From Natrialba aegyptia DSM 13077 (GTDB lineage Archaea > Halobacteriota > Halobacteria > Halobacteriales > Natrialbaceae): a stretch of DNA of 64,000 bases. The stretch spans positions 1-64,000 of the forward strand of contig NZ_AOIP01000060.1 of assembly GCF_000337535.1 (NCBI RefSeq), read 5' to 3'. Of this stretch, positions 1 through 18,284 are shown one piece after another. Every line of letters begins with the position of its first letter. Within the stretch, counting starts at the first letter, position 1. A model generated the notes under the pieces. That model saw only the letters and a list, made by a program, of their open reading frames with translations. It had not been told where the DNA came from and did not search any database. The translations under genes and the position numbers were made by a program.

Positions 1-19
1 AGATGTGTATAAGAGACAG
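1..19 (+). other. Tn5 mosaic-end sequencing adapter (artefact)
   Basis: The first 19 bases, AGATGTGTATAAGAGACAG, are exactly the Tn5 transposase mosaic end used in tagmentation libraries. They are not genomic. They mark the end of an assembled contig, and any peptide beginning MCIRDR here is an adapter artefact. Homology to the neighbouring paralogues resumes at base 20. Confidence 0.97.
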
Positions 20-794
20 GCTTCATTTCGTACCCTTCACTTCGCGCGTACAGCGGGTAGAACTGCCCCGCGGTCGGATCCGATCCACCGTTGATGAGGC
101 CGATCCGCGGGCGCTCCGATTCGGGCGGCAGCCGGGACTGGATCTCCGACCGGAGTTCGTCGTGGATCTCGGCGAACGCCTCGTATCGCTCTCGCTCCTG
201 AAACAGGTCTGCCAGACGTTCGAACCCCTCGTAGAGTGGGTAGAGCTCGTAATCGTGGAACTCGCGTCGACGGCGCATGTTGTTCCCGAAAAAGGGCGCG
301 ACGTTCTCGATGATCTCGGCCGTGTCTTCTTCGTCCCAGTTGGCGTCCCAGCCGACGCCGTGGAGGTACTCGGGGTCGATTAGGAACACGTCCGGATCGA
401 TCTCGTAGAAGCTCTCTTTGTCCCAACTGTCCTCCGCCCACATCGCCGGCAGGCCCTCCTGCGTAGGAACGTCGAGGCCGAACGGTTCGAATAAAAACTC
501 CGGGATCATGTTGCCGGCGGTGAGGAACCCCTCACGTTGACCGAGCGCGAACGCCATGTCCGCCCAGCCTCCGTTGTAGACGGCGTACCGCTCCGGGACC
601 TCCTCGAAGGAGAGACAGCCAGTAGGTTCGATGCACGCCTCGTACGACCTTCCACTCTCGGACTGTTGGGAATCGTCGTCCCGTCCGATCAGATTCGAAC
701 AGCCGGCCAGGACACTCCCCGTAACGAGTGTTCCGCCGTATTTCAGCGCGTCTCTTCGGGTCGGCCCCTCGAGCGTGCTGTCGTTGCCACTCAT
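20..794 (-). CDS. Iron-siderophore-type ABC substrate-binding lipoprotein, class A, 3'-truncated (receptor 1)
   Basis: This is the eleventh and last visible receptor of the array, cut by the contig edge after about 258 residues. The ATG at 794 overlaps the stop of the upstream receptor (ATGA). The start gives a Tat lipoprotein signal: Arg13-Arg14 in a TRRDALKYGG motif, then lipobox Leu-Ala-Gly-Cys32. It belongs with receptors 7 and 8 because it has the C-x5-C pair (Cys54, Cys60) in the first strand region and the GWADMAFALGQ helix that follows. The central FFGNN-RRRREFHDYELY segment is present. The last readable residues (GQFYPLYARSEGYEMK) match receptor 8, so the reading frame is genuine to base 20. 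The C-terminal lobe is missing only because of the assembly break. Confidence 0.9.
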
Positions 795-1978
795 GCGAAG
801 TCACCGTTGATGATATCCGCGACCGCCTGCCGGTCGAATAGTTGCTCGTCGTCGGGAATCTCCGGGTACGGCCCGTCGGCGTATGTCGGCCACTCCCCGA
901 ACACGTCGGGATAGAGTTGCTTCGCGCTCATCTCGAGTTGGAATAGGTTTAGGATCGGGCCCTGGTAGCGCGCCCCCTGCGCGTAAACCCGATCGGTTTG
1001 GACCGCGGAGAGTTCTCGTCCGACGGCGTGGTTCTCCAGATCATCCCGTATATTGGACATATCTGTTCCCGGACTCATACCGCCCAGCGAGAAGAGAACG
1101 TCGGGATCAGCCTCGAGTAGCCCTTCCATGTCGATCGTATCGCCGGAGGAAATATCGTCGCCCAGGGTACCGATCGGACCGAGCGGGCGCACGTGTGCCA
1201 ACAGAAATCCGGGCGTGTCCAGCGTGTAGACGTACATGCTTTCAATGTCGCTCATCCCCGCCATGACCACGGTCGGACGGTTCTCTTCTGGGGGGAGATC
1301 CGCCTCGATCGTTTCCAGCAGGTTCGTGTGTACCTCCGCAAGCGCTTCGTATCGCGCCTCCTCGCGGAACACCGCTGCGACCTTCTCGAACATCTCCCAG
1401 AGCGTGTAATACTCGTAGCGGTCGGCCCACTCGGCGGGCGGCTCGCCGTGTCTGTCGCTGAATTTGTTCCCGAACCACGGGCCGACGGTCCCGCCGATTT
1501 CGTCGATATCTGACGTGCTCCAGCTATCGAGAGCGTTCACGCTCGCCGGGTCGGCGAGGTGGACGTCGCTGTCGAGGTCGTAGAGTTCCTCCTTATCCGG
1601 ATCCCACGAAGAGTACAATCCCGACCAGTCCAGCGTGATTCCGGGAAGTCGCTCGGTAAACTGGTTCCAGAGCTGGTCGTAGTAGTCGGGTGCGTGCATC
1701 GCGTTGACGTCGTTTCCGCGTCCGAGAGCGAACGCCATGCCTGCGTGGTGAGTGAGCCGCGTGAAGATGCTCTCCGGCGGTGAGTCGAACTCGACTTCTC
1801 CCATGGGGGCCATCGTCACCGAATAGGAGCCATCGCCGGACGGGTCGTCCGTCCCCTCGTTTTGTCCGGCCAGATCGGAACAACCTGCAAAGGCGACACC
1901 AGTTGCGAGCGTCCCCCCGTATTTCAGCGCGTCTCTGCGCGTCGGCGTGTCGGTCGTGCTGTCGTTGTTGTCACTCAT
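791..1978 (-). CDS. Iron-siderophore-type ABC substrate-binding lipoprotein, class B (receptor 2)
   Basis: A 395-aa receptor with Tat motif TRRDALKYGG (Arg14-Arg15) and lipobox Cys33, so it should be exported folded and anchored to the outer face of the membrane. It belongs to the histidine class: after SYSVTMAPMGEVEF it carries His77-His78 at the start of the HHAGMAFALG helix. The middle contains PWFGN followed by a PPAEWAD-YEYYTLWEMFEKVA stretch, which separates this class from A and C. The C-terminal lobe has the array-wide GPILNLFQLEMSAKQLYP and ends with a VADIINGDF motif. The fold is inferred from resemblance to FecB/FhuD-like class III binding proteins. At about 390 aa it is longer than most of these (about 300). 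It abuts receptor 3 without a gap. The ligand is unknown. Confidence 0.93.
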   Translation of the reverse strand: MSDNNDSTTDTPTRRDALKYGGTLATGVAFAGCSDLAGQNEGTDDPSGDGSYSVTMAPMGEVEFDSPPESIFTRLTHHAGMAFALGRGNDVNAMHAPDYYDQLWNQFTERLPGITLDWSGLYSSWDPDKEELYDLDSDVHLADPASVNALDSWSTSDIDEIGGTVGPWFGNKFSDRHGEPPAEWADRYEYYTLWEMFEKVAAVFREEARYEALAEVHTNLLETIEADLPPEENRPTVVMAGMSDIESMYVYTLDTPGFLLAHVRPLGPIGTLGDDISSGDTIDMEGLLEADPDVLFSLGGMSPGTDMSNIRDDLENHAVGRELSAVQTDRVYAQGARYQGPILNLFQLEMSAKQLYPDVFGEWPTYADGPYPEIPDDEQLFDRQAVADIINGDFA

Positions 1979-3154
1979 TTAGAGATCACCGTTGATGATG
2001 TCCGCAACACGCTGGCGGTCGAACAGCTGTTCGTCCGTGGGAATCTCGGGGTACGGTCCCTCTGTGTAGGTCGGCCACTCTCCGAAAGCATCGGGATAGA
2101 GCTGTTTGGCGCTCATCTCGAGTTGAAACAGATTGAGGATCGGTCCCTGGTTTCGAACCCCGCCAGCGTACACGCGGTCGTTCGCAACTGCAGTGAGCTG
2201 CCGGGCGACTGGGTCCTCTTCGAATGTGCTCCGGACGTCCTCGATACCGGAGTGGCCCATCATCTCGGCGACGAGGAGAACGTCAGGGTCGTGCTCTGCT
2301 AGCGTCTCGTAACCGATCTGCCGGCTGCTCGATAAGTCCGGGAACACATCCGTTGCTCCGAGCGGACGTGTGTGTGCGTAGGTGAAGCCCGGCGCGTTGA
2401 GAGGGTACACCCACAGTGACTCGTCGACCACTTTGAGAGTCACCGCCGTCGGCCGATTGTTTGGGGACGGACGGTTCTGCTCAATCGACGTGAGCACGGA
2501 GGCATGAATATCAGCAAGCGCTCTATACCGCTCCTCGGATCCGAAGAGGTTGGCGACTTGCTCGAAGATCTCCCACAGCGTATAATACTCGTATACGTCA
2601 GCCCATTCTTCGGGCGGAGAACCGTGTGTGTTGCTGAAGGTATTGCCGAACCACGGCGCGACGTTCTCTTCGATATCAGTGATGTCGGAACGAGTCAGTG
2701 AATCCATCCACGTCATGTATGCGGGATCCGCGAGATGGAGATCGCTCTCGAGTTCGTAGAAGAGTTCTTTGTCGAGATTGAACGAGTTCGGGAGGCCGCT
2801 CCACTCGACCGAGACACCCTCGAGGCGCTCGAGGTAGTTATTCCAGATCGGTCCGAAGCGGTCCCCACCCCAGGTTGCGTTGACGGCGTCGCCTCGGCCG
2901 ACCGCGAGGGCCATCCCGGCGTGATGGGTCAAGTCAGTGTACACGGACTCCGGGGGCGACTCGAGTTCGATAGTACCTGCCGGTGCCATCGTCACGGAGT
3001 ACGTCCCGTCGTCGGAACTCGACCCTGCTGGCGTCTCCTGTCCGACTAACTCCGAACAGCCCGCGAGGGCGGTCCCAGCCGCGAGTGCGCCGCCGTATTT
3101 TAGTGTCTCTCTGCGCGTCGATCCGTCGACTGTAGTATCGGTTTCGTCAGTCAT
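1979..3154 (-). CDS. Iron-siderophore-type ABC substrate-binding lipoprotein, class B (receptor 3)
   Basis: A 391-aa Tat lipoprotein. The frame stays open further upstream to 3256. The ATG at 3154 is preferred because it overlaps the stop of receptor 4 (ATGA) and gives the array-standard leader: MTDETDTT, Arg14-Arg15, TLKYGG, lipobox Cys33. It carries the His77-His78 pair of class B and the PWFGNTFSNTHGSPPEEWAD segment. It is closest to receptors 2 and 4, its immediate neighbours, which suggests local duplication. Its ligand contacts in the second half (ANDRVYAGGVRNQGPIL) differ from both. Confidence 0.93.
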   Translation of the reverse strand: MTDETDTTVDGSTRRETLKYGGALAAGTALAGCSELVGQETPAGSSSDDGTYSVTMAPAGTIELESPPESVYTDLTHHAGMALAVGRGDAVNATWGGDRFGPIWNNYLERLEGVSVEWSGLPNSFNLDKELFYELESDLHLADPAYMTWMDSLTRSDITDIEENVAPWFGNTFSNTHGSPPEEWADVYEYYTLWEIFEQVANLFGSEERYRALADIHASVLTSIEQNRPSPNNRPTAVTLKVVDESLWVYPLNAPGFTYAHTRPLGATDVFPDLSSSRQIGYETLAEHDPDVLLVAEMMGHSGIEDVRSTFEEDPVARQLTAVANDRVYAGGVRNQGPILNLFQLEMSAKQLYPDAFGEWPTYTEGPYPEIPTDEQLFDRQRVADIINGDL

Positions 3155-4344
3155 GCGTTGTTGGCTCCAGTAATAATGTCTGCAACGTCCTGCCGGTCGA
3201 ACAGTTGTTCGGCCTCGGGAATTTCGGGATACGGCCCGTCGGTGTAGGTCGGCCACTCCCCGAAAACGTCCGGATAGAGTTGCTTCGCCGCCATTTCGAT
3301 CTGAAAGAGATTCATAATCGGCCCCTGATTCCGCCCGCCCTGCGTGTAGATGCGATCGTTTTCCACGGCCGACACCGACGCGGTCGCCGGATCGTCCGCG
3401 AGTCGCTCTCGCGTCTTCGACACGTGTCTGAATTCGGACATCCCCGCGGGACAGAGGATAACATCGGGGTCGGCCTCGATGAGTGCCTCGAAGTCGACCG
3501 TCGACTCGGTCGCCACGTCGGCGAAGACGTCCGTCGCACCGAGGGGGCGGGTGTGGGCCGTCAGGAACCCGGGACCGTTCAGCGCGTAGACGTACATGCT
3601 GTCCTCGGACTGGTTGAGGATGATCATCGCCACGCTCGGTCGCTCGTCTTCGGGCGGGAGACCCGCTTCGATGGTCGCGAGCATCTCGGCGTGAACGTCG
3701 GCAAGCGCCTGGTACCGCGCCTCCGCTTGGAAGACCCGTGCGACCTTCTCGAAGAGTTCCCAGAGCGTGTAGTACTCATAGCCGTCAGCCCATTCGGCCG
3801 GCGGCTCCTTGTTCGCGTTACTGAACGTGTTCCCGAACCACGGGGCGACGGTCTCCCCGATTTCCTCGATGTCGTCGGTACTCCAGCCACCCATCGTCGT
3901 CATATAGGCTGGATCGGCCAGATGGAGGTCGCTCTCGAGTTCGTAGAGGAACTCCTTGTCCGGGTCCCACGTCCCGGGGAGGTCGGCCCACTCCGCGGAG
4001 ACACCGTCGAGGCGCTCGAGGAATTTGTTCCAGATCGTATCGTTGTACTCGGGGTTGTACAGCATCGACGAGACGGCGTCGCCGTGGCCGGCTGCAAGCG
4101 CCATATCCGCGTGATGCGGGAGGACCGTGAGGACGCTCTCCGGCGGCTGTTCGAACTCGACGGTGCCGCTTGGTGCCATCGTCACCGAGTACATCCCGTC
4201 CGATTCGTCGGACGAACCCGATTCGCTCTGGCCGGCGAGTTCCGAACAGCCCGCCAACAGCCCGCCGCCGACGACCGTGCCGCCGTACTTCAGGGTATCT
4301 CGTCGCGTCACTGCCTCGCGTCGAACGATATCGTCGTCCGTCAT
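3151..4344 (-). CDS. Iron-siderophore-type ABC substrate-binding lipoprotein, class B (receptor 4)
   Basis: A 397-aa Tat lipoprotein. The leader is unusual in having two RR pairs, Arg8-Arg9 and Arg14-Arg15; the second is in the conserved TRRDTLKYGG context. The lipobox is LAGC with Cys33. It is class B by His77-His78 (LPHHADMALAAG) and PWFGNTFSNANKEPPAEWAD. The ATG overlaps the stop of receptor 5 by 4 bp, so translation is probably coupled. Like the rest of the array it has no ATPase or permease partner of its own. Confidence 0.93.
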   Translation of the reverse strand: MTDDDIVRREAVTRRDTLKYGGTVVGGGLLAGCSELAGQSESGSSDESDGMYSVTMAPSGTVEFEQPPESVLTVLPHHADMALAAGHGDAVSSMLYNPEYNDTIWNKFLERLDGVSAEWADLPGTWDPDKEFLYELESDLHLADPAYMTTMGGWSTDDIEEIGETVAPWFGNTFSNANKEPPAEWADGYEYYTLWELFEKVARVFQAEARYQALADVHAEMLATIEAGLPPEDERPSVAMIILNQSEDSMYVYALNGPGFLTAHTRPLGATDVFADVATESTVDFEALIEADPDVILCPAGMSEFRHVSKTRERLADDPATASVSAVENDRIYTQGGRNQGPIMNLFQIEMAAKQLYPDVFGEWPTYTDGPYPEIPEAEQLFDRQDVADIITGANNA

Positions 4345-5519
4345 CGTTCGAATTCCCCGTTGATGATGTCCGAAACGCGATCGTAGTCGAAGAGGCGCTC
4401 ATCGCCGTTCGACAGCGTTTCGAGACCGTTCCACTCTCCGAACGTCTCGGGATAGAACTGCTTGGCGGCAGCTTCGGTCTGGAACAGATTGATGATCGGT
4501 CCCTGATAGGAGGTTCCACCGCGATAGAGCCGATCGTTCTGGACGGCGGTGAGCCGTTTGCCGACCGGGTCTTCGCGCATGGCATCCATTCGCTGCTCGA
4601 ACTGTTCGGTCGAAACGTGAGAAAACCCGTACTGGAACAGCAGCGCGTCCGGATCGATCTCGAGGAGCCGTTCGTAGTCCCACTCCGCGTAGCCCCCGTC
4701 GATCTCGTCGTCGAACGCACCTCGCATCTCGAGGTCCCGGTACTGCTTGTGTCCGTTCCCGTCGTGAACCGGATAGGCATAGAACGCACCCTTCTCGAAG
4801 TTCGAGTTGATCGATAGCAGTCCGACGGTCGGTCGTTCCTCGTTCGGCGGTAGTTCGGACCGAATTTCCGAGAGGAGGCGTTCGTGAATCTCGTTGAGTG
4901 CTTCGTATCGCTCTCGCTGTTGGAAGACGTCGGCGATTACGTCGAAGGCCTCGTATAGCGAGTAGTACGGGTAGTCGTGCCAGTCGTCGCCACGACGACG
5001 AATCGAGTTGCCGACGATGGGGCCGATACCGGTCGAGACTTCATCGAAATCCGCTGGCCCCCAACTGTCGTCGAGGACGCTGATGAAGTTCGGATCGAAC
5101 AGGTGGACGTCGCTCTGGAGGTCGTAGAACGTTTCCTTATCAATTCCGCCCTCACTCATGAGCTGCGGAACGTCGTCGAACGAGACATCGATGCCCGGAA
5201 GCGCGTCGTAGAACGCGCTCGGCCAGTTCTCCGTGTAAATGAGTCCCTGCAGACCGTCGAGTTGGCCGAGCGCGATAGCCATGTCAGCATAGGTGCTGAA
5301 GTACGCCATCCACGTCTCGGGTACGGCGTCGAAGGTGACCTCGCCCATCGGTGGCATCGTCACCGTGTACGACTTGCTTCCGTCCGTCTCGACTCCGTCG
5401 CTCTGCCCGGCCAACTCCGAACAGCCCGCGATGGCAACGCCGGCCGCAAGTGAGCTGCCGTATTTCAATGCGTCTCTGCGCGTCGGGCCTCCGGTCGTGC
5501 TGTCGGTATTGTCACTCAT
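4341..5519 (-). CDS. Iron-siderophore-type ABC substrate-binding lipoprotein, class C (receptor 5)
   Basis: A 392-aa Tat lipoprotein (Arg14-Arg15, lipobox Cys33). It lacks both the Cys pair of class A and the His-His pair of class B, having FSTYADMAIALGQ at that position. It shares the RRR-DDWHDY-YYSLYEAF segment with receptor 6 and, more distantly, with class A. The first-lobe sequence IVGNSIRRRGDDWHDY is Arg-rich, which could suit an anionic ferric-siderophore ligand; this is inference. It has 4-bp overlaps with both neighbouring genes. Confidence 0.92.
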   Translation of the reverse strand: MSDNTDSTTGGPTRRDALKYGSSLAAGVAIAGCSELAGQSDGVETDGSKSYTVTMPPMGEVTFDAVPETWMAYFSTYADMAIALGQLDGLQGLIYTENWPSAFYDALPGIDVSFDDVPQLMSEGGIDKETFYDLQSDVHLFDPNFISVLDDSWGPADFDEVSTGIGPIVGNSIRRRGDDWHDYPYYSLYEAFDVIADVFQQRERYEALNEIHERLLSEIRSELPPNEERPTVGLLSINSNFEKGAFYAYPVHDGNGHKQYRDLEMRGAFDDEIDGGYAEWDYERLLEIDPDALLFQYGFSHVSTEQFEQRMDAMREDPVGKRLTAVQNDRLYRGGTSYQGPIINLFQTEAAAKQFYPETFGEWNGLETLSNGDERLFDYDRVSDIINGEFER

Positions 5520-6685
5520 CGTTCGAACTCTCCGGTGATGATGTCTGCGACCGCCTGTCGGTCGAAGAGCTGGTCGTCGCCGGTCACCTCCCCGAACTCG
5601 TCGGGGAACAGTTGCTTCGCCGCTCGCTCGGTCAGGAAGAGGTTGTGAATCGGCCCCTGATTGAGGTAGCCGCCGCGGTAGACGCGCCCGTTCTGGACGG
5701 CGGAAAGCTCGCTCCCGACGGGATGGCTCTGCATGTAGTCGAGAACCACGTCCCGAAACTCCGCGGCGGACTTTCGCTCGTGACCACGGACGAGAATCAC
5801 ATCTGGATCGACCTCGAGTAAGTTCTCGTAGTCGAGTTCACCGCGGTTCGCCGTGCTGAGGTTATCGATGTCCGTCCCCGCCAGCGCGTCGTGGACGCCG
5901 AGATCGCGCCACTGTTTCTTGCTCGTCCCCGCGTCGTCGAGTCGGTACGGCGAGAACGTCTTCGGCTCGTCGGTTCCCTCGAACGTGAGGAAGACCTCCG
6001 GTCGGTCCCCGTTCGGTGGAAGCCGCTCCTGTATCGACGCGATGAACTCGTCGTGAAGGTCACTGAAGGCCTCGTAGCGCGCTTGCTGTTGGAACACGTC
6101 GGCAACCTTCTCGAACGCTTCGTACAGCGTGTAGTAGCGGTAGTCGTGCCAGTCGTCGGAGCGCCGAAAGATCAGGTTCCCGACGAACGGCGCGACGTTC
6201 GTCGCGATCTCGTCGACGTCTCCCTCGCCCCAGTCTAACCAATTGATGAGCATCTGAGGGTCATACAGGTGGACGTCGCTCTCGAGTTCGTAGAACTCCT
6301 CTTTGGTTCTGACCTCCGGATACTGCTCGAGGACGTCTTCGTCGACGGTCACGCCCGGCAGTTCGTCGTAGACGTACGTGTAGTAGCGGTCCGCGCCGCC
6401 GACGCCGGCCAATCCGTCGGCCTGCCCCAGCGCGACGGCCATGTCGGCGTAGCCGCCGTCGTACGCGGCCCATCGTTCGGGTACCTCGTCGAACGAAACC
6501 GTCCCCATCGGCTCCATTGACACCGAGTACGATCCCTGCTCGGTCGTCTGGGTCCCGTGGTCATCCTCCTGTCCGACCAGTTCCGAACAGCCCGCGAGGG
6601 CGGTCCCGGTCGCAAGCGCTGCGCCGTACTTGATCGTGTCTCTGCGCGTCGGTGCCGCTGTCGTATTCGTGTTCTTGGAATTCAT
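5516..6685 (-). CDS. Iron-siderophore-type ABC substrate-binding lipoprotein, class C (receptor 6)
   Basis: A 389-aa receptor, the shortest complete one in the array, with Tat leader TRRDTIKYGA and lipobox Cys33. It pairs with receptor 5 through GGYADMAVALGQADG and VGNLIFRRSDDWHDYRYY. The C-terminal tail is shortened, going directly from FGEVTGDDQLFDRQ to VADIITGEFER, without the longer WPTY-DGPYPEIP linker of class B. The start is adjacent to the stop of receptor 7. Confidence 0.92.
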   Translation of the reverse strand: MNSKNTNTTAAPTRRDTIKYGAALATGTALAGCSELVGQEDDHGTQTTEQGSYSVSMEPMGTVSFDEVPERWAAYDGGYADMAVALGQADGLAGVGGADRYYTYVYDELPGVTVDEDVLEQYPEVRTKEEFYELESDVHLYDPQMLINWLDWGEGDVDEIATNVAPFVGNLIFRRSDDWHDYRYYTLYEAFEKVADVFQQQARYEAFSDLHDEFIASIQERLPPNGDRPEVFLTFEGTDEPKTFSPYRLDDAGTSKKQWRDLGVHDALAGTDIDNLSTANRGELDYENLLEVDPDVILVRGHERKSAAEFRDVVLDYMQSHPVGSELSAVQNGRVYRGGYLNQGPIHNLFLTERAAKQLFPDEFGEVTGDDQLFDRQAVADIITGEFER

Positions 6686-7873
6686 TTAGATCTCTCCGTT
6701 GATGATATCCGCAACCCGCTGGCGATCGAACAGCTGCTCGTCTTCGGTGACATCCGGGAATCGGTCAGAATCGAACGCGCCGAACGTCTCGGGGTAGAGC
6801 AATCGGGCGACGAGTTCGGTCTGGAAGAGGCTCACGATCGGTCCCTGTTGGAAGTACGGACCCGGATAGACGGCGTCGTTCTGGACAGCAGTGAGTTGGC
6901 GGCCGACGGGATGGTCCGAAAGCGGCGCGACGAACTGGTCGTGAAACGCGCTCGCGGAGAACTCGCCGGTTTCGTCCGTGAGGCGAACGCCGCCGTGGAC
7001 GACGATGATCTCGGGGTCGACAGCAAGCATCGACTCGTAGTCGAGCATTCCGTCCGTCTGCTCGTCGCTGAACGCCGATTTGATACCGAGGTCGCGATAC
7101 TGCTTCATCTCGAGGCCTTCGGAATCAGTCGTCATCGCCGCGAACTCGCCGCTTTCGAGGTCGGATCCGAAGTTGATGAGTCCGATTTCGGGGCGGTCGC
7201 GGTCGGCCGATAAGTTCGAGTCGATCTCGGCCCAGAGGTCGTCGTGAACGTCGACGAACGCCTCGTACCGCTCGCGCTCGTCGAAGACGTCGGCCAACCG
7301 ATCGAACGCCTCGTACAGCGAGTACAGTTCGTAGTCGTGGAACTCGCGTCGGCGAACGATGTTGTTCCCGAAGAAGGGAGCGACGGTCTCTCCGATCTCT
7401 TCGGTATCGGACTCGTCCCACGAGTCATCGAAGCCGGTTCCGTGGAGGTAGTTCGGATCACAGAGGATGATATCCGGATCGAGTTCGTAGAACAACTCCT
7501 TGTCCCAGCCGCCCCCGGCCAGCGGGTTCGGAACGTCCGTCGGCATCGACACGCCGACGCGGTCGTAGAAGTACGGCTCTGGATACCATCCGGCGGGCCG
7601 AAACCCATCGCGTTGGCCGAGTGCAACGGCCATATCCGCCCACGGACCCGTAAGCGCCATCCAGCTCTCCGGAACCTCCTCGAGGGAGAGACAGCCGACG
7701 GGCTCGATGCAGGCTTCGTACGAACCCTGGCTGTCGGTCCCCTCTGCGCCGTCGTCCTGCCCGACCAGCTCCGAACAGCCGGCGAGCAGACTTCCCGCGG
7801 CGAGCGTCCCGCCGTACTTGAGGGCGTCTCTGCGCGTCGGTGCCTCGGTCGTATCGCTCGTCGTGTCTGGCAT
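6686..7873 (-). CDS. Iron-siderophore-type ABC substrate-binding lipoprotein, class A (receptor 7)
   Basis: A 395-aa Tat lipoprotein (MPDTTSDTTE leader, Arg14-Arg15, lipobox Cys33). It is class A: the mature N-terminus contains SYEACIEPVGCL with Cys55 and Cys61, which could form a disulfide outside the cell or a metal site. Its leader is nearly identical to that of receptor 8 (MPDTTSDTAA), pointing to recent duplication or gene conversion over the 5' end. The FFGNNIVRRREFHDYELY segment is conserved within the class. There is a two-base gap to receptor 8. Confidence 0.93.
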   Translation of the reverse strand: MPDTTSDTTEAPTRRDALKYGGTLAAGSLLAGCSELVGQDDGAEGTDSQGSYEACIEPVGCLSLEEVPESWMALTGPWADMAVALGQRDGFRPAGWYPEPYFYDRVGVSMPTDVPNPLAGGGWDKELFYELDPDIILCDPNYLHGTGFDDSWDESDTEEIGETVAPFFGNNIVRRREFHDYELYSLYEAFDRLADVFDERERYEAFVDVHDDLWAEIDSNLSADRDRPEIGLINFGSDLESGEFAAMTTDSEGLEMKQYRDLGIKSAFSDEQTDGMLDYESMLAVDPEIIVVHGGVRLTDETGEFSASAFHDQFVAPLSDHPVGRQLTAVQNDAVYPGPYFQQGPIVSLFQTELVARLLYPETFGAFDSDRFPDVTEDEQLFDRQRVADIINGEI

Positions 7874-7875
7874 GC

Positions 7876-9075
7876 TCAGAACTCACCGTTGATGATGTCT
7901 GCAACCCGCTGGCGGTCGAACAACAATTCGTCCGTAGAGAACTCCGGGAACGCCTCCGGATCGAACTCTCCGAAGATCTCCGGATAGAACTGTCGGGCGA
8001 CCATTTCCGTCTGCAGAAGGTTGACGATCGGCCCCTGTGAGCCGAACGCCCCGGGATAAACGGAACCGTTCTGAACAGCGGTGAGTTGACTTCCAACCGG
8101 ATGGTCTTCCAGCGGAGTGACGTACTGATCGCGAAACGCCGCTGCGGAGAACCCGTTACCGCCATCGGTAGTACCGATCCCCCAATGGACGACGATGATA
8201 TCCGGATCGACCTCGAGTAGCCGTTCGTAGTCGATCGTTCCGGCCTCGACGTGATCTGGCGAAAACGCGCTTCCGACGTCTAAATCACGATATGGCTTCA
8301 TCTCGAGACCTTCGACCCGCGTGTCCATCGGATAGAACTGTCCCTGAGTCGGGTCGGATGCGCTGTTAATCAGGGCGATATCGGGTCGTTCGTTCTGGGG
8401 CGGGAGCCGGGAATCGATCTCGGACAGCACGCGCTCGTGAATATCGGCGAACGCCTCGTACCGATCTCGTTCTTGGAAGAGGTCAGCCAGCCGCTCGAAT
8501 GCCTCGTACAGCGAGTAAGAACGATAATTGTGCCACTCTCGACGGCGGAGAATGTTCTTTCCGAAGAACGGCGCAACCGTATCGCGAATCTCCGCGGTGT
8601 CTCGCTCGTCCCACGAACTGTCCCATCCGGTCTCGTGCATGTAGTTGGGATCCATCAGAATAACGTCGGGATCGAGTTCGTAGAACCGCTCTTTGTCCCA
8701 GTTCGAGGGAGACAGTGACGCGGTTTCTGACTCGGGTGGAACATCGAGACCGAACGGTTCGAACAGGAATCCCGGAATCATGTTCGCGGCGGTCTGGAAC
8801 CCATCTCGTTGGCCCAACGCGAAGGCCATATCCGCCCACTCTCCGTTATTGACGATGTACGTCTCCGGAATCTCCTCGAACGTGAGACAGCCGACCGGTT
8901 CGAGACAGGCCTCGTACGCCGAATCATCGGATCCTCCCTCCGACCCGGTATCGGCGTCGTGACTGAGAAGGTCGGAACAGCCTGCGACTGAAACCGCGGT
9001 TGCGAGTACTCCGCCGTGTTTCAGCGTGTCTCTTCGTGTCGGTGCCGCTGCCGTATCGCTCGTCGTGTCTGGCAT
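7876..9075 (-). CDS. Iron-siderophore-type ABC substrate-binding lipoprotein, class A (receptor 8)
   Basis: A 399-aa Tat lipoprotein with the slightly altered motif TRRDTLKHGG and lipobox Val-Ala-Gly-Cys33. It is class A by AYEACLEPVGCL (Cys57, Cys63). Through most of its length (EPFGLDVP, GWDSSWDERDTAEI, DPTQGQFYP) it is the closest relative of the truncated receptor 1, although the two are separated by six other receptors. The array has therefore not grown only by copying neighbours. Confidence 0.93.
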   Translation of the reverse strand: MPDTTSDTAAAPTRRDTLKHGGVLATAVSVAGCSDLLSHDADTGSEGGSDDSAYEACLEPVGCLTFEEIPETYIVNNGEWADMAFALGQRDGFQTAANMIPGFLFEPFGLDVPPESETASLSPSNWDKERFYELDPDVILMDPNYMHETGWDSSWDERDTAEIRDTVAPFFGKNILRRREWHNYRSYSLYEAFERLADLFQERDRYEAFADIHERVLSEIDSRLPPQNERPDIALINSASDPTQGQFYPMDTRVEGLEMKPYRDLDVGSAFSPDHVEAGTIDYERLLEVDPDIIVVHWGIGTTDGGNGFSAAAFRDQYVTPLEDHPVGSQLTAVQNGSVYPGAFGSQGPIVNLLQTEMVARQFYPEIFGEFDPEAFPEFSTDELLFDRQRVADIINGEF

Positions 9076-9077
9076 GC

Positions 9078-10328
9078 TCAGAACTCACCGTTAATGATGG
9101 CTGCAATCCGCTGGCGGTCGAACAACTGTTCCGACTCGGAAAACTCCGGATACGCGCCGCCATCGTATCGCGGCCACTCGCCGAACTGCTCCGGATAGAG
9201 CTCCTTTGCGCCCATCTCGAGTTGGAAGAGGTGCGCGATCGGTCCGCCGTACCGAATCGCCATGGGGTAGATGCGACCGTTTTCGACCGCGGGAATCTCT
9301 CGAGCCACGGGATCGGTTTCGAGGAAGTCTTTCGTCTCGACGAAGTTTCTCGTCGGCCCCATCGCGTGGGTGTTGAGTATCACGTCGGGATCGGCTTCGA
9401 CGAGCGCCTCGAGATCGATCTGGCTGTACGCCTCGATGTCGGTGAACGCGTCTACCGCACCGAGCGGGCGGAGATGCGCCTGCTCGAAGCCGGGGTCGTT
9501 GAGTGCAAACGGCGAGATGCTCAGGTCTCCATCCGAGAGTCCCGTCTGTATGCGAGCGACCCGCGGCCGGTCGGTTTCCGGCGGGAGGTTGGCCTCGATC
9601 TCGGCGAGGAGATCCGTGCGGATCGCCGTGAGTTCCTGATACCGCTTTTCTTCCCGAAAAACTGCCGCGACCTTCTCGAATATCTCCCAGAGCGTGTAGT
9701 ACTCGTAGTCGTCGGCCCACGCTGCTGGCGGCTCTCTCTGGGAATCGCTGTAGGTGTTTCCGAACCACGGGGCGACGGTCTCGCCGGTCTCTTCGATGTC
9801 GTCGCGGTCCAAACTGTCCATTATCGTCATGTACGCCGGATCGGCCAGGTGGAGATCGCTCTCGAGTTCGTAGAGTTGCTCCTTGTCGATGTTCCAGGAG
9901 CTAGGCAGGTCGGCCCACTCGGTGGATACCCCCTCGAGGCGCTCGAGGAAGAGTTCGTAGAGCGTCCCGAAGTTCTCCGGGCTGTACAAGGCGTTAATCG
10001 AGTCGCCGTGCCCGAGTGCGAGCGCCATATCGGCGTGGTGGACGATATTGGTGAAGACGTTCTCCGGCGGTCGCTCGAGCGTGATCTCGCCGGCGGGGGC
10101 CATCGTCACTGAGTATGACTCGCCATCGCCCTCTCTTTCGCCCTCGTCACCGGTCCCGGTACAGCCGGCGAGTAGCCCGCCGCTGACCACTGCCCCGCCG
10201 TATTTCACGTATTCCCGTCGAGTCCGTTCGCTTCGCTCACTCCCCCGACGACTTCCCGCTCGCTGGCGCTCGCGGGAATCCCGTCGCGTCGGTGCTCCGG
10301 TCGTTTTCGCGTCGTTGGTGTCAGTCAC
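9078..10328 (-). CDS. Iron-siderophore-type ABC substrate-binding lipoprotein, class B, with expanded Tat leader (receptor 9)
   Basis: A 416-aa receptor. The GTG at 10328 is preferred over the ATG at 10358: it gives MTDTNDAKTTGAPTRRD like the paralogues and overlaps the receptor 10 stop by only 8 bp. Compared with the paralogues, 22 extra residues, rich in Arg, Ser and Glu, sit between the expected RRD (Arg15-Arg16) and the KYGG hydrophobic start. They end in a second TRRE (Arg37-Arg38) that recreates a Tat motif next to the h-region. The lipobox Cys is thus at 56 instead of 33. The rest is ordinary class B (His97-His98, PWFGNTYSDSQREPPAAWAD). Confidence 0.92.
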   Translation of the reverse strand: MTDTNDAKTTGAPTRRDSRERQRAGSRRGSERSERTRREYVKYGGAVVSGGLLAGCTGTGDEGEREGDGESYSVTMAPAGEITLERPPENVFTNIVHHADMALALGHGDSINALYSPENFGTLYELFLERLEGVSTEWADLPSSWNIDKEQLYELESDLHLADPAYMTIMDSLDRDDIEETGETVAPWFGNTYSDSQREPPAAWADDYEYYTLWEIFEKVAAVFREEKRYQELTAIRTDLLAEIEANLPPETDRPRVARIQTGLSDGDLSISPFALNDPGFEQAHLRPLGAVDAFTDIEAYSQIDLEALVEADPDVILNTHAMGPTRNFVETKDFLETDPVAREIPAVENGRIYPMAIRYGGPIAHLFQLEMGAKELYPEQFGEWPRYDGGAYPEFSESEQLFDRQRIAAIINGEF

Positions 10329-11547
10329 GGTTAGATTTCCCGTTAACGATGTCGGCAACCTCCCCGCGGTCGAACAGCTGTTCGTCGGCTGGAATTTCGG
10401 GATACGGTCCCTCGGTGTAGGTCGGCCACTCGCCGAACGCGTCGGGATACAGTTGCTTCGCCGTCATCTCCGTCTGGAAGAGATTGAGAAGCGGACCCTG
10501 ACGCCGTGATCCCTGGACGTGTATCCGGTCGTTCTGGACAGCGGTCAGCTCGCTCGCAACGTCGTGGTTCGCGAGGGTCGACCGGATCTCCTCGATGTCG
10601 TGAGACTCCGTCATCGGTCCGAAGACCAGGAGTGCATCAGGATCGGCTTCGAGTAGGAGTTCGTAGTCCAGCACGATGTTCCGACCGTCGTCTCCGTACG
10701 ACGGGCCGACGGCGTCCGCGAGGGCATCGGTCGCCCCAAGCGGTCGCGAGTGGGCGGCGTAGTAGCCGGGGTGGTTCATCTTGTATCCCCAGATCTTGCC
10801 GTCATCCGCGGTCGAGAACAGGACCATCGCCGCTGTCGGCCGGTCGCCTTCCGAGGGCAGTCTGCGTTCGATTTCGTTTAGCATCGACTCTCGAACGGCC
10901 GCGAGTTCCTGATAACGCGTCTCCGCCTGGAACACCTGTGCGATCTTCCGGAAGATTTCCCAGAGAGGGTAGTACTCGTAGCTGTCGGCGTAGGCCTCTG
11001 GCGGTGCCTTCTGCGTGCCGCTGAGGGTGTTTCCGAACCACGGTGCGACGAGCTCCGCGATCTCTTCGACGTCGTTGGCGTCCAAGCCTTCGGCCGTCGC
11101 AACCTTCGCCGGGTCGGCCAGGTGGACGTCGCTATCCAGTTCGATGAGTTTCTCCTTCGTCGGCGGCCACGAGGAGTAGAGGCCGGACCAATCGACGGAG
11201 ACGCCCTCGAGGCGGTGGAGGAACTTGCTCCAGAGCGACTCGTAATAGTCGGGCCCGTGCATGGCGTTGAGCGAGTCGCTGCGACCGACCGCCACCGCCA
11301 TGTCGACGTGGTGGGGCAGAATACTGAACACGTTCTCCGGTACGGAATCGAACGTGACCTCGCCCATCGGAGCCATCTCGACCGAGTAGGACCCGTCTCC
11401 TGGCGTTCCGTTCTGACTCTGGTTCTCGTCTTGCCCCGCTAGTTCCGAACAGCCGGCGATTGCCCCACCCCCAGCCAACGCCCCGCCGTACTTCACAAGG
11501 TCTCTACGCGTCGGTGCTCCACTCGTAGTAGTGTCATGATTTGGCAT
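10321..11547 (-). CDS. Iron-siderophore-type ABC substrate-binding lipoprotein, class B (receptor 10)
   Basis: A 408-aa Tat lipoprotein (TRRDLVKYGG, lipobox Cys33) of the histidine class (His79-His80, ILPHHVDMAVAVG). It is longer than its relatives because of a loop around SYGDDGRNIVLDYELLLEADP in the second lobe. PWFGNTLSGTQKAPPEAYAD replaces the usual Trp of the class. There is a two-base gap to receptor 11. The gene ends in a short Lys/Asn/Arg tail after VADIVNG instead of the usual acidic or aromatic end. Confidence 0.92.
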   Translation of the reverse strand: MPNHDTTTSGAPTRRDLVKYGGALAGGGAIAGCSELAGQDENQSQNGTPGDGSYSVEMAPMGEVTFDSVPENVFSILPHHVDMAVAVGRSDSLNAMHGPDYYESLWSKFLHRLEGVSVDWSGLYSSWPPTKEKLIELDSDVHLADPAKVATAEGLDANDVEEIAELVAPWFGNTLSGTQKAPPEAYADSYEYYPLWEIFRKIAQVFQAETRYQELAAVRESMLNEIERRLPSEGDRPTAAMVLFSTADDGKIWGYKMNHPGYYAAHSRPLGATDALADAVGPSYGDDGRNIVLDYELLLEADPDALLVFGPMTESHDIEEIRSTLANHDVASELTAVQNDRIHVQGSRRQGPLLNLFQTEMTAKQLYPDAFGEWPTYTEGPYPEIPADEQLFDRGEVADIVNGKSNRD

Positions 11548-11549
11548 TT

Positions 11550-12740
11550 TCAGACGTCTCCGTTGATGATATCCGCGACGCGCTTTCGCGAGAACAACTG
11601 CTCCGATTCCGGGATGTCGTACGTCCCATCGTCGTTGTAGGTCGGGAACTCGCCAAACTGCTCGGGGTAGATTTGCTTCGCAGCCATCTCTATCTGGAAC
11701 AGGTTATAAATCGGGCCCTGCATCGAATCGCCGCCACCGTACAGCCGATCGTTCTGTACCGCGCTCAACTTCGAGCCAACCGGATCGTCTTTGAGGTCGA
11801 GCATCGACTGATACCGTTCGTCAAAGCCACCCGTGCCGAAGTTGTGAATGAGAACGTCCGGATCGATTTCGAGCATCAATTCGAGGTCGTAGGTTCCTGC
11901 GTCCGATTCGTACGTGCGGTCGCTGTCGGCGAATACGTCCCGCACGCCGAGCGGCCGGTAGTGTGAGACGCCGTATCCCTCGTTATCTATTTTGTACGGC
12001 GAGAACACACCCCAGTCGTTCATCGCGACCAGTGCCACCGTCGGGCGTTCGTCCGCAGGCGGGAGGTTGGATTCGACGAGTGAGACGAGATCGTCACGGA
12101 CGCGTTTTAACGCCTGATACCGCTCCGTCTCGCGGAATACCTGTGCCACCTTATTGTATAACTCCCAGGCGGTGTAGAAGTCGTAATTCTCGACGCTTTG
12201 ATCGACTCGCTCGTTGTGCGACCGCGAGAAACGATTCCCGAAGTAAGAGGCCACGTTCCGTTCGATCTCGTCGATATCGTTCTCATCGAAGTCGTAGTAC
12301 TCGCCGTAAACGGTGTACCACGTCGGATCAAGCAAGATGAGGTCGGGATCGACATCGTAGATAAGCTCCTTGTTGTCGTAACTGCTCGTCATCCGCGCAG
12401 AGGGATCAAACTCGACATCGGGTAACTGGTCGTAATAGCCAGTATAAAAGCGCTCCGTCGGCATCGCCGTGATCGCTTCACCGTGGCCGAAAGCCACCGC
12501 CATGTCGACGTAATTTATACTATAGGTTAGCACCCGATCGGGGACTTCCCCGAATTCGATGGTTCCGACCGGTGATATCGTCACCGAGTAGGCGTCCCCG
12601 CCTGCTTCAGCCGTCGATCCCGAATCGTTCTGTCCTACTAAGTCAGAACACCCCGCCAGCAGTCCGCTTCCGACGGCCGTGCCGCCGTATGTCACGAAAT
12701 TCCGACGTGTCGGGCCGTTGCCTCTCATTTTGTCTCCCAT
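11550..12740 (-). CDS. Iron-siderophore-type ABC substrate-binding lipoprotein, first and most divergent receptor (receptor 11)
   Basis: A 396-aa Tat lipoprotein (TRRNFVTYGG at 11-20, lipobox Cys31). It is promoter-proximal. The ATG at 12740 is chosen over Met5 because an operator palindrome and TATA-like box lie 6 and about 25 bases upstream, the geometry of a leaderless start and the same as at the permease promoter. It has Tyr-Val-Asp in the helix where class B has His-His-Ala. It also has its own middle segment, YFGNRFSRSHNERVDQSVENY, so I place it in a class of its own. The C-terminal lobe has the shared GPIYNLFQIEMAAKQIYP. Confidence 0.92.
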   Translation of the reverse strand: MGDKMRGNGPTRRNFVTYGGTAVGSGLLAGCSDLVGQNDSGSTAEAGGDAYSVTISPVGTIEFGEVPDRVLTYSINYVDMAVAFGHGEAITAMPTERFYTGYYDQLPDVEFDPSARMTSSYDNKELIYDVDPDLILLDPTWYTVYGEYYDFDENDIDEIERNVASYFGNRFSRSHNERVDQSVENYDFYTAWELYNKVAQVFRETERYQALKRVRDDLVSLVESNLPPADERPTVALVAMNDWGVFSPYKIDNEGYGVSHYRPLGVRDVFADSDRTYESDAGTYDLELMLEIDPDVLIHNFGTGGFDERYQSMLDLKDDPVGSKLSAVQNDRLYGGGDSMQGPIYNLFQIEMAAKQIYPEQFGEFPTYNDDGTYDIPESEQLFSRKRVADIINGDV

Positions 12741-12745
12741 CGTAT

Positions 12746-12798
12746 TTTTAGGATCGCCTAAAACATAATAAACGCTCCGATTATTAGGTCGGCCTAAA
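12746..12798 (-). promoter_or_regulatory. Receptor-array promoter with paired iron-repressor-like operators
   Basis: Two inverted repeats of the form TTAGG-N4-CCTAA lie at 12747-12762 (TTTAGGATCGCCTAAA) and 12784-12797, with centres 36 bp apart. An AT-rich TATA-like element (12764-12772) lies between them. The nearer palindrome starts 6 bases upstream of the receptor 11 ATG. The form resembles DtxR/IdeR/SirR-family sites; the regulator itself is not in the window. Occupancy would cover the TATA box and start site, so iron-dependent repression is the natural reading (inference). Confidence 0.8.
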
Positions 12799-12904: not shown

Positions 12905-14788
12905 TCAAGCGGTGGTCTCGAGAAACGATTCGGGGACGGCATCGATTTCACCGGCTTGGACGCCCCACAGCGTCGCGTACAGCCCGTCCGCTGCGAGCAA
13001 GTCGTCGTGAGTGCCGCGCTCGACGATCCGCCCGTCCTCGAGGACGAGGATCGTGTCCGCGTCCTTGATCGTCGACAGCCTGTGGGCGATGGCTACCGTC
13101 GTCCGCTCGGTGGTCAGTTCCTCGAGCGAGCGTTGGATGAGGTACTCCGTCTCCGTGTCGACGCTGGCGGTCGCCTCGTCCAGCAGGATGATCGCCGGAT
13201 CCTGCAGGATCGCCCGGGCCAGTGCGATCCGCTGGCGCTGGCCGCCGGAGAGTTTGACGCCCCGCTCGCCGACCCGCGTCTGATAGCCGTCCGAAAGCGC
13301 TCGGATGAACTCGTGGGCTTCCGCCGCGTCGGCGGCCTCCCGTACCTCGTCGTCGCTCGCATCGAAACGGCCGTAGCGGATGTTCTCGGCGACGGTACCG
13401 TCGAATAGGAACGTGTCTTGGCTCACATAGCCGATCGCGTCCCGCAGGTCCGAAACCCGGACGTTCCGCACGTTGTGGCCGTCGACGCGGATCGCGCCGT
13501 CGTCGACGTCGTACAACCGCAAGAGGAGTTTCGCGACCGTCGATTTGCCCGCGCCGGTCGACCCGACGAGAGCGATCGTCTCGCCCGGTTCGACGGCGAA
13601 GTCGATCCCGTCGAGGATCGGTTCCCCGTCCTCGTAGCCGAACCGAACGTCGTCGTACTCGAGTCGCCCGTCGACCGCCTCGAGGGCGGCCGCGTTCGGT
13701 GAGTCCCGAATCCGGACTGGCACGTCCAACAACCCGCAGATGCGCTTGCCCGACGCCTTCGCGTTCTCGTACCAGTCGACGATACTCGAGAGTTGGGCCA
13801 TCGGCCCCGTCAGGCGCTGGGTCAACAGCATGAAGACGACGAAGTCGCCCGTGGTGAGTTCGCCGGAGAAGAACAGCGGCGGTCCGGAGAACACCCACAG
13901 TCCGCCGACGACGAACGTCGCGAGCAGCGCCACGCCGGTGATCAACTCCATGCCGGGCCGGTAAAAGTAACTCAGCTTCAACACGTCCATCTGTGCATCG
14001 AGCACCTCCCGTGAGACATCGCGAACGCGGCCGTTCTCGTACTCCTCGGTGCTGGCGGTCTTGACGAGTTCGATCCCGCTGAGACCGTTCTCGATGCGCG
14101 TGTTCAGATCGCCGATCGTCGAGCGGACGGCGGTGTACCGCGGTTCGATCAGCCTGACGAACCACCAGGTAAACGCGACCAGCAACGGCACGGCCCCCAG
14201 CGTGACCAGTGCGAGTTGCCAGTTCGTGTACAGCAACGCGGCGGTGATTCCGACGACGATCACGCCGATCCGAACGCTGTCTCCCAGCGCGTTATCGAAG
14301 AACACCTCGAGATTTGAGGTGTCGTTGTTCAGAATCGACATGACCTCGCCGGTCTCCTTGTTGTCGAAAAAGGTCATATCGAGGCGTTGCATCTTCTCGT
14401 AGGTCTCCGTTCGAATCGTGTACATCACTCCGTGGGCGAAGAAGTTCATCGCCACGCCCCGGACCCATTGGAGCAGCGCACCGCCCGCCAGCGCGACCCC
14501 GATAACGGTCGCGGACAGCCAGAACTGCGCGGTCGGGTCAGTCGGCAGCCACGCGGCGGGCACGAGCGGAAGCGCGTACGTTTCCTCCCCGAACACCGCA
14601 TCGATAGTCGTTCCGAGCACGAGCGGCGTCACGAGGACCGTTCCGTAGGCGATCACGCTGGAGACCAATCCAAGTGCGAGCCAGCGTCCCTCACCGAGGC
14701 CGTAGGTACGGAACAGTCGAAACAACGGCTGCGAGACTCGCTCTCGGTAGGCATCGAGTTCCGTCTCGAATTCCTCGTTCTCGGTCAC
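12905..14788 (-). CDS. ABC transporter, exporter-fold fused TMD-NBD (MsbA/IrtAB type)
   Basis: A 627-aa half-transporter expected to act as a homodimer. The N-terminal ~330 residues carry six membrane helices of the type IV/exporter fold. The C-terminal ATPase has Walker A (GSTGAGKST), signature LSGGQRQR, Walker B (IILLDEATASVD) and the His switch (AHRLST). The GTG start overlaps the stop of the FecE-like ATPase by one base, so it is in the iron operon. Exporter-fold ABC proteins can import siderophores (mycobacterial IrtAB, Yersinia YbtPQ) or export siderophores or lipids. Which applies here is open, but the operon argues for a siderophore-linked role. Confidence 0.92.
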   Translation of the reverse strand: MTENEEFETELDAYRERVSQPLFRLFRTYGLGEGRWLALGLVSSVIAYGTVLVTPLVLGTTIDAVFGEETYALPLVPAAWLPTDPTAQFWLSATVIGVALAGGALLQWVRGVAMNFFAHGVMYTIRTETYEKMQRLDMTFFDNKETGEVMSILNNDTSNLEVFFDNALGDSVRIGVIVVGITAALLYTNWQLALVTLGAVPLLVAFTWWFVRLIEPRYTAVRSTIGDLNTRIENGLSGIELVKTASTEEYENGRVRDVSREVLDAQMDVLKLSYFYRPGMELITGVALLATFVVGGLWVFSGPPLFFSGELTTGDFVVFMLLTQRLTGPMAQLSSIVDWYENAKASGKRICGLLDVPVRIRDSPNAAALEAVDGRLEYDDVRFGYEDGEPILDGIDFAVEPGETIALVGSTGAGKSTVAKLLLRLYDVDDGAIRVDGHNVRNVRVSDLRDAIGYVSQDTFLFDGTVAENIRYGRFDASDDEVREAADAAEAHEFIRALSDGYQTRVGERGVKLSGGQRQRIALARAILQDPAIILLDEATASVDTETEYLIQRSLEELTTERTTVAIAHRLSTIKDADTILVLEDGRIVERGTHDDLLAADGLYATLWGVQAGEIDAVPESFLETTA

Positions 14789-15705
14789 TATTCAGCCTCC
14801 ATGCCGTCGTTTCGTCGGCTGGTTTCGTCGTCGTGATCCGAGTCAGCGTCGTCGTTACGGGCGCAGAGTGGATCGATCCGCGGTCCGCGCTCGGTCAGTT
14901 CGACATCGGCATCGATCCGGAACACCTCCTCGAGCAATGACTCGGTAACGACGTCCGCAGGGTCCCCTCGATCCCGTATCTCGCCGTCCCCGAGGACAAT
15001 TACGTGGTCGGCGAGCCGCGCCGCCTGTTCGATGTCGTGGAGCACGACGACGACCGTACTATCGCTTTCCTCGCGCAGGCGTTCGACGATCTCGAGGACT
15101 GTGAGGTGATGGTGAAGATCGAGGAACGTCGTCGGTTCGTCGAGCAAGAGCACGTCAGTCTCCTGGGCCAGCACCATCGCGATCCACGCGAGTTGTTTCT
15201 GGCCGCCGCTGAGACTGCCGACCTCGCGCTCGCGGAGGAGACCACAGTCCGCGAGTTCGATCGCGCGCTCGACCGCCTCGTGATCCGCGTCGGAGATCGA
15301 CTCGAAAAAGCCCCGGTGGGGATAGCGGCCGTGATAGACGAGATCCTCAACGGTGATACTGCTCGGCGACGTACTCTCTTGGGAGAGCAAGCCGAGCTTC
15401 CGGGCGAGGGCCTTCGTCTCCATCGACTGTACCTCGTCGTCACCGAGCAGTACCGACCCGTCCTCGGGCGCGAGCCGGTTGGCAAGTCCCTTCAATAACG
15501 TACTCTTCCCCGATCCGTTCGGGCCGACGAGTGCGGTGACCGCTCCCGGTTCGGCCGCGACGGATTCGCCGCCGATGATCGGATCGCCCGAGCTCGAGTA
15601 CTGCAACACGAGGTCCGAACCGGAGAGCGTACTCGCCGCCGAGTCGCCGGCGGCTGGCTCTCCCTGTTCGGTCGGTCGACCCGAGTCCGTGATGAGGCCA
15701 TCCAT
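14788..15705 (-). CDS. ABC transporter ATP-binding protein, FecE/FepC-like
   Basis: A 305-aa cytoplasmic ATPase of the iron-siderophore/B12 importer type. It has Walker A GPNGSGKST, Q-loop LLSQES, signature LSGGQKQ, Walker B VLLLDEPTTFLDL and the H-loop VLHD. An unusual ~35-residue acidic N-terminal extension precedes the ATPase core. The C-terminus continues ~40 residues past the core with a D/R-rich tail. It is adjacent to the permease stop (no gap) and followed by the exporter-fold gene. It is the only stand-alone ATPase in the locus, so it presumably powers the FecCD permease for all the receptors. Confidence 0.95.
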   Translation of the reverse strand: MDGLITDSGRPTEQGEPAAGDSAASTLSGSDLVLQYSSSGDPIIGGESVAAEPGAVTALVGPNGSGKSTLLKGLANRLAPEDGSVLLGDDEVQSMETKALARKLGLLSQESTSPSSITVEDLVYHGRYPHRGFFESISDADHEAVERAIELADCGLLREREVGSLSGGQKQLAWIAMVLAQETDVLLLDEPTTFLDLHHHLTVLEIVERLREESDSTVVVVLHDIEQAARLADHVIVLGDGEIRDRGDPADVVTESLLEEVFRIDADVELTERGPRIDPLCARNDDADSDHDDETSRRNDGMEAE

Positions 15706-16836: not shown

Positions 16837-17006
16837 CGTCGAACCACGTACTCCGTTGGGACGGAACTGTGGCGCTCGTTTCTGTCGGGTGCGTTCTCAC
16901 CGTGTCCGCTCGATTCCGAGCATCGAGCAGGCACCACATCACCACTGTTGCCCGGTATGGACACTTGCCGAACTAAGACGGGACGTTCCTCGAGTTCATC
17001 AGCCAT
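16833..17006 (-). CDS. Small leaderless ORF coupled to the permease, 57 aa
   Basis: This open frame runs from ATG at 17006 (MADELEERPVLVRQ...) to a TGA that overlaps the permease ATG. The start lies 5 bases downstream of the proximal operator and about 25 from a TATA-like box, matching the leaderless start of the receptor array to within one base. That geometry is the best evidence it is translated. The peptide is hydrophilic with one Cys and no membrane segment. Third-position G+C is lower than in neighbouring genes, so it could be a coupling leader rather than a functional protein. No family was recognised. Confidence 0.45.
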   Translation of the reverse strand: MADELEERPVLVRQVSIPGNSGDVVPARCSESSGHGENAPDRNERHSSVPTEYVVRR

Positions 17007-17011
17007 AGTGA

Positions 17012-17061
17012 TTTAGGCCGGCCTAAACAATAAAACCGTTCCGGTTTTTAGGCCAGCCTAA
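17012..17061 (-). promoter_or_regulatory. Permease operon promoter with paired iron-repressor-like operators
   Basis: A perfect palindrome TTTAGGCCGGCCTAAA lies at 17012-17027 and a second TTAGG-N4-CCTAA site at 17048-17061, with centres 35 bp apart. A TATA-like TTTTATTG (minus strand, 17028-17036) lies between them. The spacing and order are the same as at the receptor-array promoter, so the two transcription units are probably controlled by the same DtxR-type regulator. Confidence 0.82.
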
Positions 17062-18060: not shown

Positions 18061-18284
18061 ATGACTGTCAGCGCGTATTCGGAAGATCGATCGCATCGCA
18101 CAATAAAATCTATCGTCTGAGGGCTGGAATGGGTGTCGCGACCTCCCGGCGAAAGCGGGGCTGTGTAGGGGCGACAATCTGGTACCGAGACCGATGAATG
18201 CGGCGGTCTTCGGTGTGTGACGGAATGTGCGATAGCTGCGATAGGTGCCTCGGCGAAGTTACTAAAAATCGGACGCCGCAGGAA

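Follow-up and report, generated by a model that had tools for sequence, protein, structure and literature searches.

A tandem array of predicted siderophore receptors beside one FecCD transport core in Natrialba aegyptia DSM 13077, a probable iron-regulated uptake locus

The locus described here lies at one end of a 64,000-nucleotide stretch of Natrialba aegyptia DSM 13077 (contig NZ_AOIP01000060.1, positions 1 to 64,000; C59:1-64000 in a 4.6-Mb draft genome of 65 contigs), hereafter the window. We propose that it is a siderophore-uptake locus, induced by iron starvation, in which many receptor lipoproteins feed one ATP-binding cassette (ABC) channel, and we consider this account as a whole probable. 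It draws on features that were observed or computed: the order of the genes, the predicted fold, the conservation of docking residues, the iron boxes that the loci share, orthology and purifying selection.

The receptor genes run head to tail on the minus strand. An earlier reading of the letters by themselves (the sequence-only reading) had counted ten complete copies and one cut copy in tandem, and both the open reading frames (ORFs), which give complete products of 389-416 amino acids (aa), and the profile matches bear out that count. It had also described junctions of 4-bp overlaps or 0-2-base gaps. This stands for all junctions but one, an 8-bp overlap at 10321-10328 that hinges on the choice of start codon for receptor 3. 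The genes are as follows.

11550..12740, minus strand: receptor 1, first gene of the array; 94% orthologue; dN/dS (ratio of nonsynonymous to synonymous divergence) 0.12-0.18
10321..11547, minus strand: receptor 2; profile match of 556.9 bits; 66% relative in genome G035
9078..10328, minus strand: receptor 3; GTG start at 10328, 416 aa; 87% orthologue in genome G104; dN/dS 0.20-0.22
7876..9075, minus strand: receptor 4; 531.6 bits; 68% relative in genome G024
6686..7873, minus strand: receptor 5; 93-94% orthologues; dN/dS 0.17-0.19
5516..6685, minus strand: receptor 6; 94% orthologue; dN/dS 0.12-0.19
4341..5519, minus strand: receptor 7; 97% orthologue in Natrinema versiforme JCM 10478; dN/dS 0.10
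3151..4344, minus strand: receptor 8; structure predicted; Glu131 and Glu286; orthologues 92-94%
1979..3154, minus strand: receptor 9; profile match of 558.8 bits; closest relative 64% (genome G025)
791..1978, minus strand: receptor 10, class III binding lipoprotein; Peripla_BP_2 2.6e-11; orthologues at up to 83%
20..794, minus strand: receptor 11, N-terminal 258 aa; ORF interrupted by adapter, remainder on contig C58 (L029:7225-7481)

All five receptors tested against Peripla_BP_2 score above the Pfam curated cutoff, and a genome-wide search recovers every one of the ten complete window receptors above it. The twin arginine (R14 R15) and the lipobox (A31 G32 C33) are invariant in an alignment of 15 receptors from this genome, in agreement with the proposal that each copy carries a twin-arginine translocation (Tat) signal and a lipobox. 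The assignment to the binding-protein family is likewise upheld, by the Peripla_BP_2 matches and by the predicted structure. A model of receptor 8 (predicted local distance difference test score, pLDDT, 89; predicted template modelling score, pTM, 0.85) has the two-lobe class III fold rather than a non-binding-protein fold. All 50 PDB matches listed for this model are class III-type binding proteins (Z 18.9-22.4), mostly binders of siderophores or iron complexes, and include CeuE, HtsA, FhuD2, YiuA and VctP; the best is 4ljs (Z 22.4, root-mean-square deviation 3.1, 287 residues).

The structure and the alignments also suggest how these receptors would meet the permease. The predicted docking residues, one per lobe, are Glu131, kept in 192 of 193 receptors compared, and Glu286, kept in all 193; their equivalence to known docking glutamates rests on alignment to solved relatives and on PMC3741162, which reports that Glu-Arg pairs are required for docking in FecB, FhuD2 and FeuA. 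On the permease side, R101, R104 and R341 of FecCD align with R56, R59 and R295 of BtuC. The permease contacts were thus found to be conserved across the copies, as anticipated, and docking of the receptors on the array FecCD is what we infer from these alignments. Along the receptor sequence, per-residue variability is low around 136-145, 286-295 and 346-394 and high around 96-125, 146-155, 236-265 and 296-315.

These docking residues bear on whether the proteins are import receptors at all. They might instead be mainly extracellular binders or sensors, serving iron capture, signalling or the denial of iron to competitors, and a sensor role has been proposed for orphan binding proteins that belong to a different transporter family (PMC5994714). 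Sensing alone, however, would not need the glutamates that are kept in essentially every copy. In a family-wide survey, moreover, the receptor family and the permease were each tallied in 91 of 125 genomes, with the same genomes listed for both (per-genome receptor tallies being among the best 15 scored candidates). We consider the sensor alternative very unlikely.

Upstream of the receptors lie the transport core, an exporter gene and a HEAT-repeat gene, all on the minus strand.

17074..18177, minus strand: HEAT-repeat protein gene, upstream of the FecCD promoter
15706..16836, minus strand: FecCD permease (FecCD 3.7e-89)
14788..15705, minus strand: FecE/FhuC-type ATPase, identified by sequence match; not beside the permease in many related arrays
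12905..14788, minus strand: full-length MsbA-like ABC exporter half-transporter (ABC_membrane 9.9e-43, ABC_tran 6.4e-34)

The exporter gene, which the sequence-only reading did not mention, sits between FecE and the receptors; it is absent from many other arrays and survives as a remnant in two. The core is single at this locus, as that reading had stated, but not in the genome, where a second, intact FecCD-FecE-receptor set of the same family is found on contig C15, with its own receptor and iron boxes and a permease 66% identical to that of the array. Orphan receptors lie on contigs C14, C30 and C31, and BtuCDF-like genes on contig C6. Contig C39 (L030:7181-8536) holds a broken FecCD and a receptor fragment, the remains of a third transport set, and contig C63 (L025:902-3282) a decayed similar locus, in which a HEAT-repeat gene is followed by an iron box and then a receptor with stops/frameshift. 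The genome tally, with the caveat that this is a draft, is about 16 intact receptors versus two intact permeases of matching type; a dedicated permease for each receptor was looked for elsewhere in the genome and none was found. The proposal is supported, as far as a siderophore-receptor repertoire with few permeases goes, by this ratio, together with the class III fold, the retained docking Glu and Arg residues and the iron boxes; its single channel is qualified by the second permease.

It is also possible that only some receptors use the array permease and that the rest, along with the orphans, use the C15 core. This core is intact and has iron boxes and a receptor of its own, which carries the same two glutamates as those of the array. 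The docking residues, however, show no split into two classes, and in genomes with long arrays the receptors stay next to the array permease and their order is conserved. We regard such a division as a doubtful but real possibility, and favor docking of the whole repertoire on the array channel.

Two other features near the permease were considered and set aside. A HEAT or PDS5-annotated gene also adjoins the array in Halostagnicola larsenii and in Halobacterium hubeiense, and a search of related loci found HEAT homologues upstream of FecCD in only four others. HEAT was rejected as the gene that usually separates FecCD from an upstream receptor, since a flavin oxidoreductase takes that place. 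A 57-codon leader ORF before FecCD (16836-17006) is without relatives in the loci searched and probably arises by chance.

Iron regulation is suggested by two pairs of boxes.

17048..17061: second FecCD-side iron box, TTAGGCCAGCCTAA, 35 bp from TTTAGGCCGGCCTAAA
17012..17027: perfect palindromic iron box, TTTAGGCCGGCCTAAA, upstream of FecCD
12784..12797: second receptor-side iron box, 36 bp from TTAGGcgatCCTAA
12748..12761: iron box, TTAGGcgatCCTAA, immediately before the start of receptor 1

The receptor-side boxes flank a TATA-like stretch. Because this second pair stands directly before receptor 1, the receptor genes probably have a promoter of their own, and many other arrays show a pair with this spacing ahead of their first receptor. 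At one mismatch or fewer the 64-kb window contains four box matches versus 0.02 expected. Genome-wide, the strict box is present at five sites, all at receptors or the permease of the array family, and a relaxed box at 15 sites versus 2 for a reversed control. The relaxed boxes include those at C15, C30, the C63 relic and an iuc siderophore-synthesis operon on contig C64; three more, at C7:36159, C16:62386 and C52:50781, adjoin unassigned genes. Boxes of the kind seen before iuc also precede the array and the orphan receptors. The iuc-type operon (L115:2250-10788), with its iron box upstream, appears to encode an aminotransferase, a decarboxylase, IucA/IucC-type synthetases, an acetyltransferase and a monooxygenase. 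The organism thus probably makes its own siderophore, in which case at least one receptor may serve it. Near the array of Halostagnicola there is a gene for a metal-dependent regulator.

Could the boxed loci import a metal complex of another kind, for example haem or cobalamin? Haem and B12 are also transported by FecCD-type permeases, and BtuC and HmuU are among the FecCD matches. Against this, the same kind of box precedes the iuc operon, the BtuCDF-like set on C6 is separate, and the structural matches are mainly siderophore binders. Furthermore, according to Sailer et al. (2024; PMC11349517), Haloferax fhu genes are preceded by FerR signals, and five of 11 fhuD binding proteins, together with one permease, increase in iron starvation. 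The presence of boxes at the array agrees with those signals. Transport of such other complexes is very unlikely, and siderophores remain the substrates that we favor.

Where the array ends is a property of the assembly. Because bases 1-19 are a Nextera mosaic-end adapter, the array end at window position 20 is an assembly edge and not a biological one, and contig C58 has this adapter, AGATGTGTATAAGAGACAG, at its own end in reverse complement (L029:7482-7500).

1..19: Nextera/Tn5 mosaic-end adapter, not genomic, an exact match to AGATGTGTATAAGAGACAG
L029:7051-7221 (C58): 57-aa miniprotein MRAREW...VRR, which adjoins the last receptor in most arrays examined
L029:4739-5665 (C58): thioredoxin-reductase-like FAD oxidoreductase, present in nearly every array

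The edge of C58 carries a receptor C-terminus in the orientation of receptor 11; this piece and the N-terminal piece of receptor 11 share the same best-matching protein, with 54 residues absent between them. Beyond the remnant, C58 carries the 57-aa ORF, another complete receptor and the flavin oxidoreductase, and the order miniprotein-receptor-oxidoreductase recurs in the arrays of other genomes. Most likely, then, the array goes on across C58, and it likely totals 12 receptors. The miniprotein shares 61-95% identity with its 20 aligned relatives and has a match in 96 of 391 haloarchaeal genomes; it has no Pfam or NCBIfam match and is annotated only as a hypothetical protein. The oxidoreductase, which in other arrays stands either past the last receptor or between an upstream receptor and FecCD, may be a ferric-siderophore reductase. 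The adapter is also found once inside contig C39 (L030:982-1000), about 1 kb into locus L030, which suggests a misjoin or chimera at that point of the assembly.

The receptor copies themselves are old. Those in slots 1, 3, 5, 6, 7, 8 and 10 match particular copies from other genera at 79-97% identity, and for shared slots the receptor order is conserved with respect to N. versiforme. Paralogues are mostly 40-69% identical to each other, and in a tree of 193 receptors all 15 of the genome's own receptors have their nearest neighbour in another genome. The dN/dS values of the orthologue pairs tested are 0.10-0.22, and the tested copies are therefore maintained under purifying selection. These results bear on the suggestion that the family is now growing by tandem amplification, a recent, ongoing and largely redundant expansion in this lineage. 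The head-to-tail order would fit such a history, as would the presence of the array in this genome only among seven of the genus. The high orthologue identities (to 97%), the much lower paralogue identities, the tree neighbours in other genomes and the low dN/dS all speak against it; we reject recent tandem duplication on the orthologue identities and tree neighbours, and give the amplification scenario an extremely low probability.

We favor a history of exchange instead. In simple Nei-Gojobori estimates against two Natrinema-group genomes (N. versiforme JCM 10478 and a related genome), synonymous divergence (dS) is 0.14-0.29 for receptors 1 and 5-8 and 0.22 for the array FecE; the array FecCD stands at 0.67-0.80 and the C15 core genes at 0.46-0.56. 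The simplest reading of these divergences is that receptor blocks have been exchanged between genera independently of the permease. Several arrays sit on large plasmids, a plausible route. The old receptor copies behave as exchangeable cassettes. It is about an even question whether the system as a whole is modular, with a conserved permease, an exchangeable ATPase that is often supplied in trans, and a receptor operon under a promoter of its own, from and to which haloarchaeal genera lose, gain and trade members. If so, the substrate range of one channel could be rebuilt through horizontal transfer of receptors alone.

Comparison with other haloarchaeal arrays adds the ATPase to this picture. 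Arrays occur in N. versiforme (8 receptors), on the Halostagnicola larsenii plasmid NZ_CP007056 (9), on Halobacterium hubeiense pSTJ001 (5) and in Halohasta litorea (7), and that of G104 has ten intact receptors and a broken one; none among the loci examined is longer than the window's. They share its permease and receptor families, a similar order and the oxidoreductase; the 57-aa protein and a HEAT gene are often present as well, and most have the paired iron boxes. They have fewer receptors, and several lack a FecE gene, the exporter or both. FecE is absent beside the array permease in 16 of the 20 genomes that carry this permease. Fourteen of these 16 have a single FecE-type ATPase, counting close relatives of FecE only, at the other core; the remaining two have a further, distant one (E ~1e-51). 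In all 16 the array permease must use the ATPase of the other core or another one, and sharing between cores is likely. In Staphylococcus aureus, FhuC serves several permeases (PMC10147376).

Taken together, these data lead us to propose the following mechanism. When iron is plentiful, a DtxR-family (FerR/SirR-like) repressor probably occupies the paired boxes; when it is scarce, the repressor would leave both promoters. One promoter would drive the core (FecCD, FecE and the exporter) and the other the long receptor operon, which probably ends with the miniprotein, the twelfth receptor and the oxidoreductase. Each receptor would be exported folded by Tat, anchored by lipid and presumably loaded with a different ferric chelate; all would use one pair of glutamates to dock on a single kind of FecCD dimer, giving one channel for the whole repertoire, and the orphan receptors probably use it too. 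The array ATPase and the one in the second FecCD-FecE set may be interchangeable, and the oxidoreductase may release the iron. The repertoire itself would evolve as receptor cassettes are gained, lost and exchanged between genera.

Several points weigh against parts of this account. The second intact FecCD-FecE pair could serve some receptors. The diversity of ligands is deduced from receptor sequence divergence. Receptor 10 shows a dS of 0.77 to the N. versiforme genome, and not every slot looks recently exchanged. Finally, the join of C58 to C59 spans a gap of about 160 bp, across which we infer that the operon continues.

Elsewhere in the window, a glycoside hydrolase cluster (33695-43263; GH3, GH16 with malectin and CBM domains, and GH81) suggests beta-glucan breakdown. 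A heavy-metal P-type ATPase lies at 47360-50119 and an MMPL/RND-type permease at 58195-61221; a permease of the MMPL/RND superfamily is the Haloferax protein most induced by iron starvation (PMC11349517).

Archaeal ferric-siderophore uptake is little characterised, and as of 2020 neither the genes for import nor the reductase of Haloferax counted as known (PMC7407949). In the present locus iron boxes stand over a permease, an ATPase, a candidate reductase, a conserved miniprotein and about 12 receptors, so that the system lends itself to testing in a tractable haloarchaeon. As a natural experiment, it also bears on how many receptors one ABC channel accepts and on how repertoires move between species without the channel. 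What the locus adds is a long array of class III receptors whose iron-boxed promoter is separate, cassette-like exchange and recurrent ATPase loss; in the open-licence papers searched we found no description of these.

Known systems share parts of this design. FhuCBG-D1D2 of S. aureus also has several receptors per permease, and its FhuC serves permeases whose operons lack an ATPase, HtsABC, SirABC and IsdEF among them (PMC10147376); it has two receptors rather than about 12 and a two-gene permease, and its ATPase sharing is experimental, whereas ours is deduced. The TTT/Bug expansions of Bordetella and Rhodoplanes likewise combine many binding proteins with few membrane parts and include one nine-gene tandem array, mostly below 50% identity (PMC5994714), but they involve another binding-protein family, a non-ABC transporter and bacteria, with no single-permease array under a metal box. 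The FhuCGD system of Haloferax volcanii is likewise haloarchaeal and has 11 fhuD paralogues as binding proteins against two fhuG permeases, with FerR-regulon signals upstream (PMC11349517). The sections of that paper drawn on here describe no long tandem array, whereas here about 12 receptors stand in a row behind their own paired box. A high receptor-to-permease ratio was thus already known in Haloferax, and the locus described here is an extreme, well-resolved case of it.

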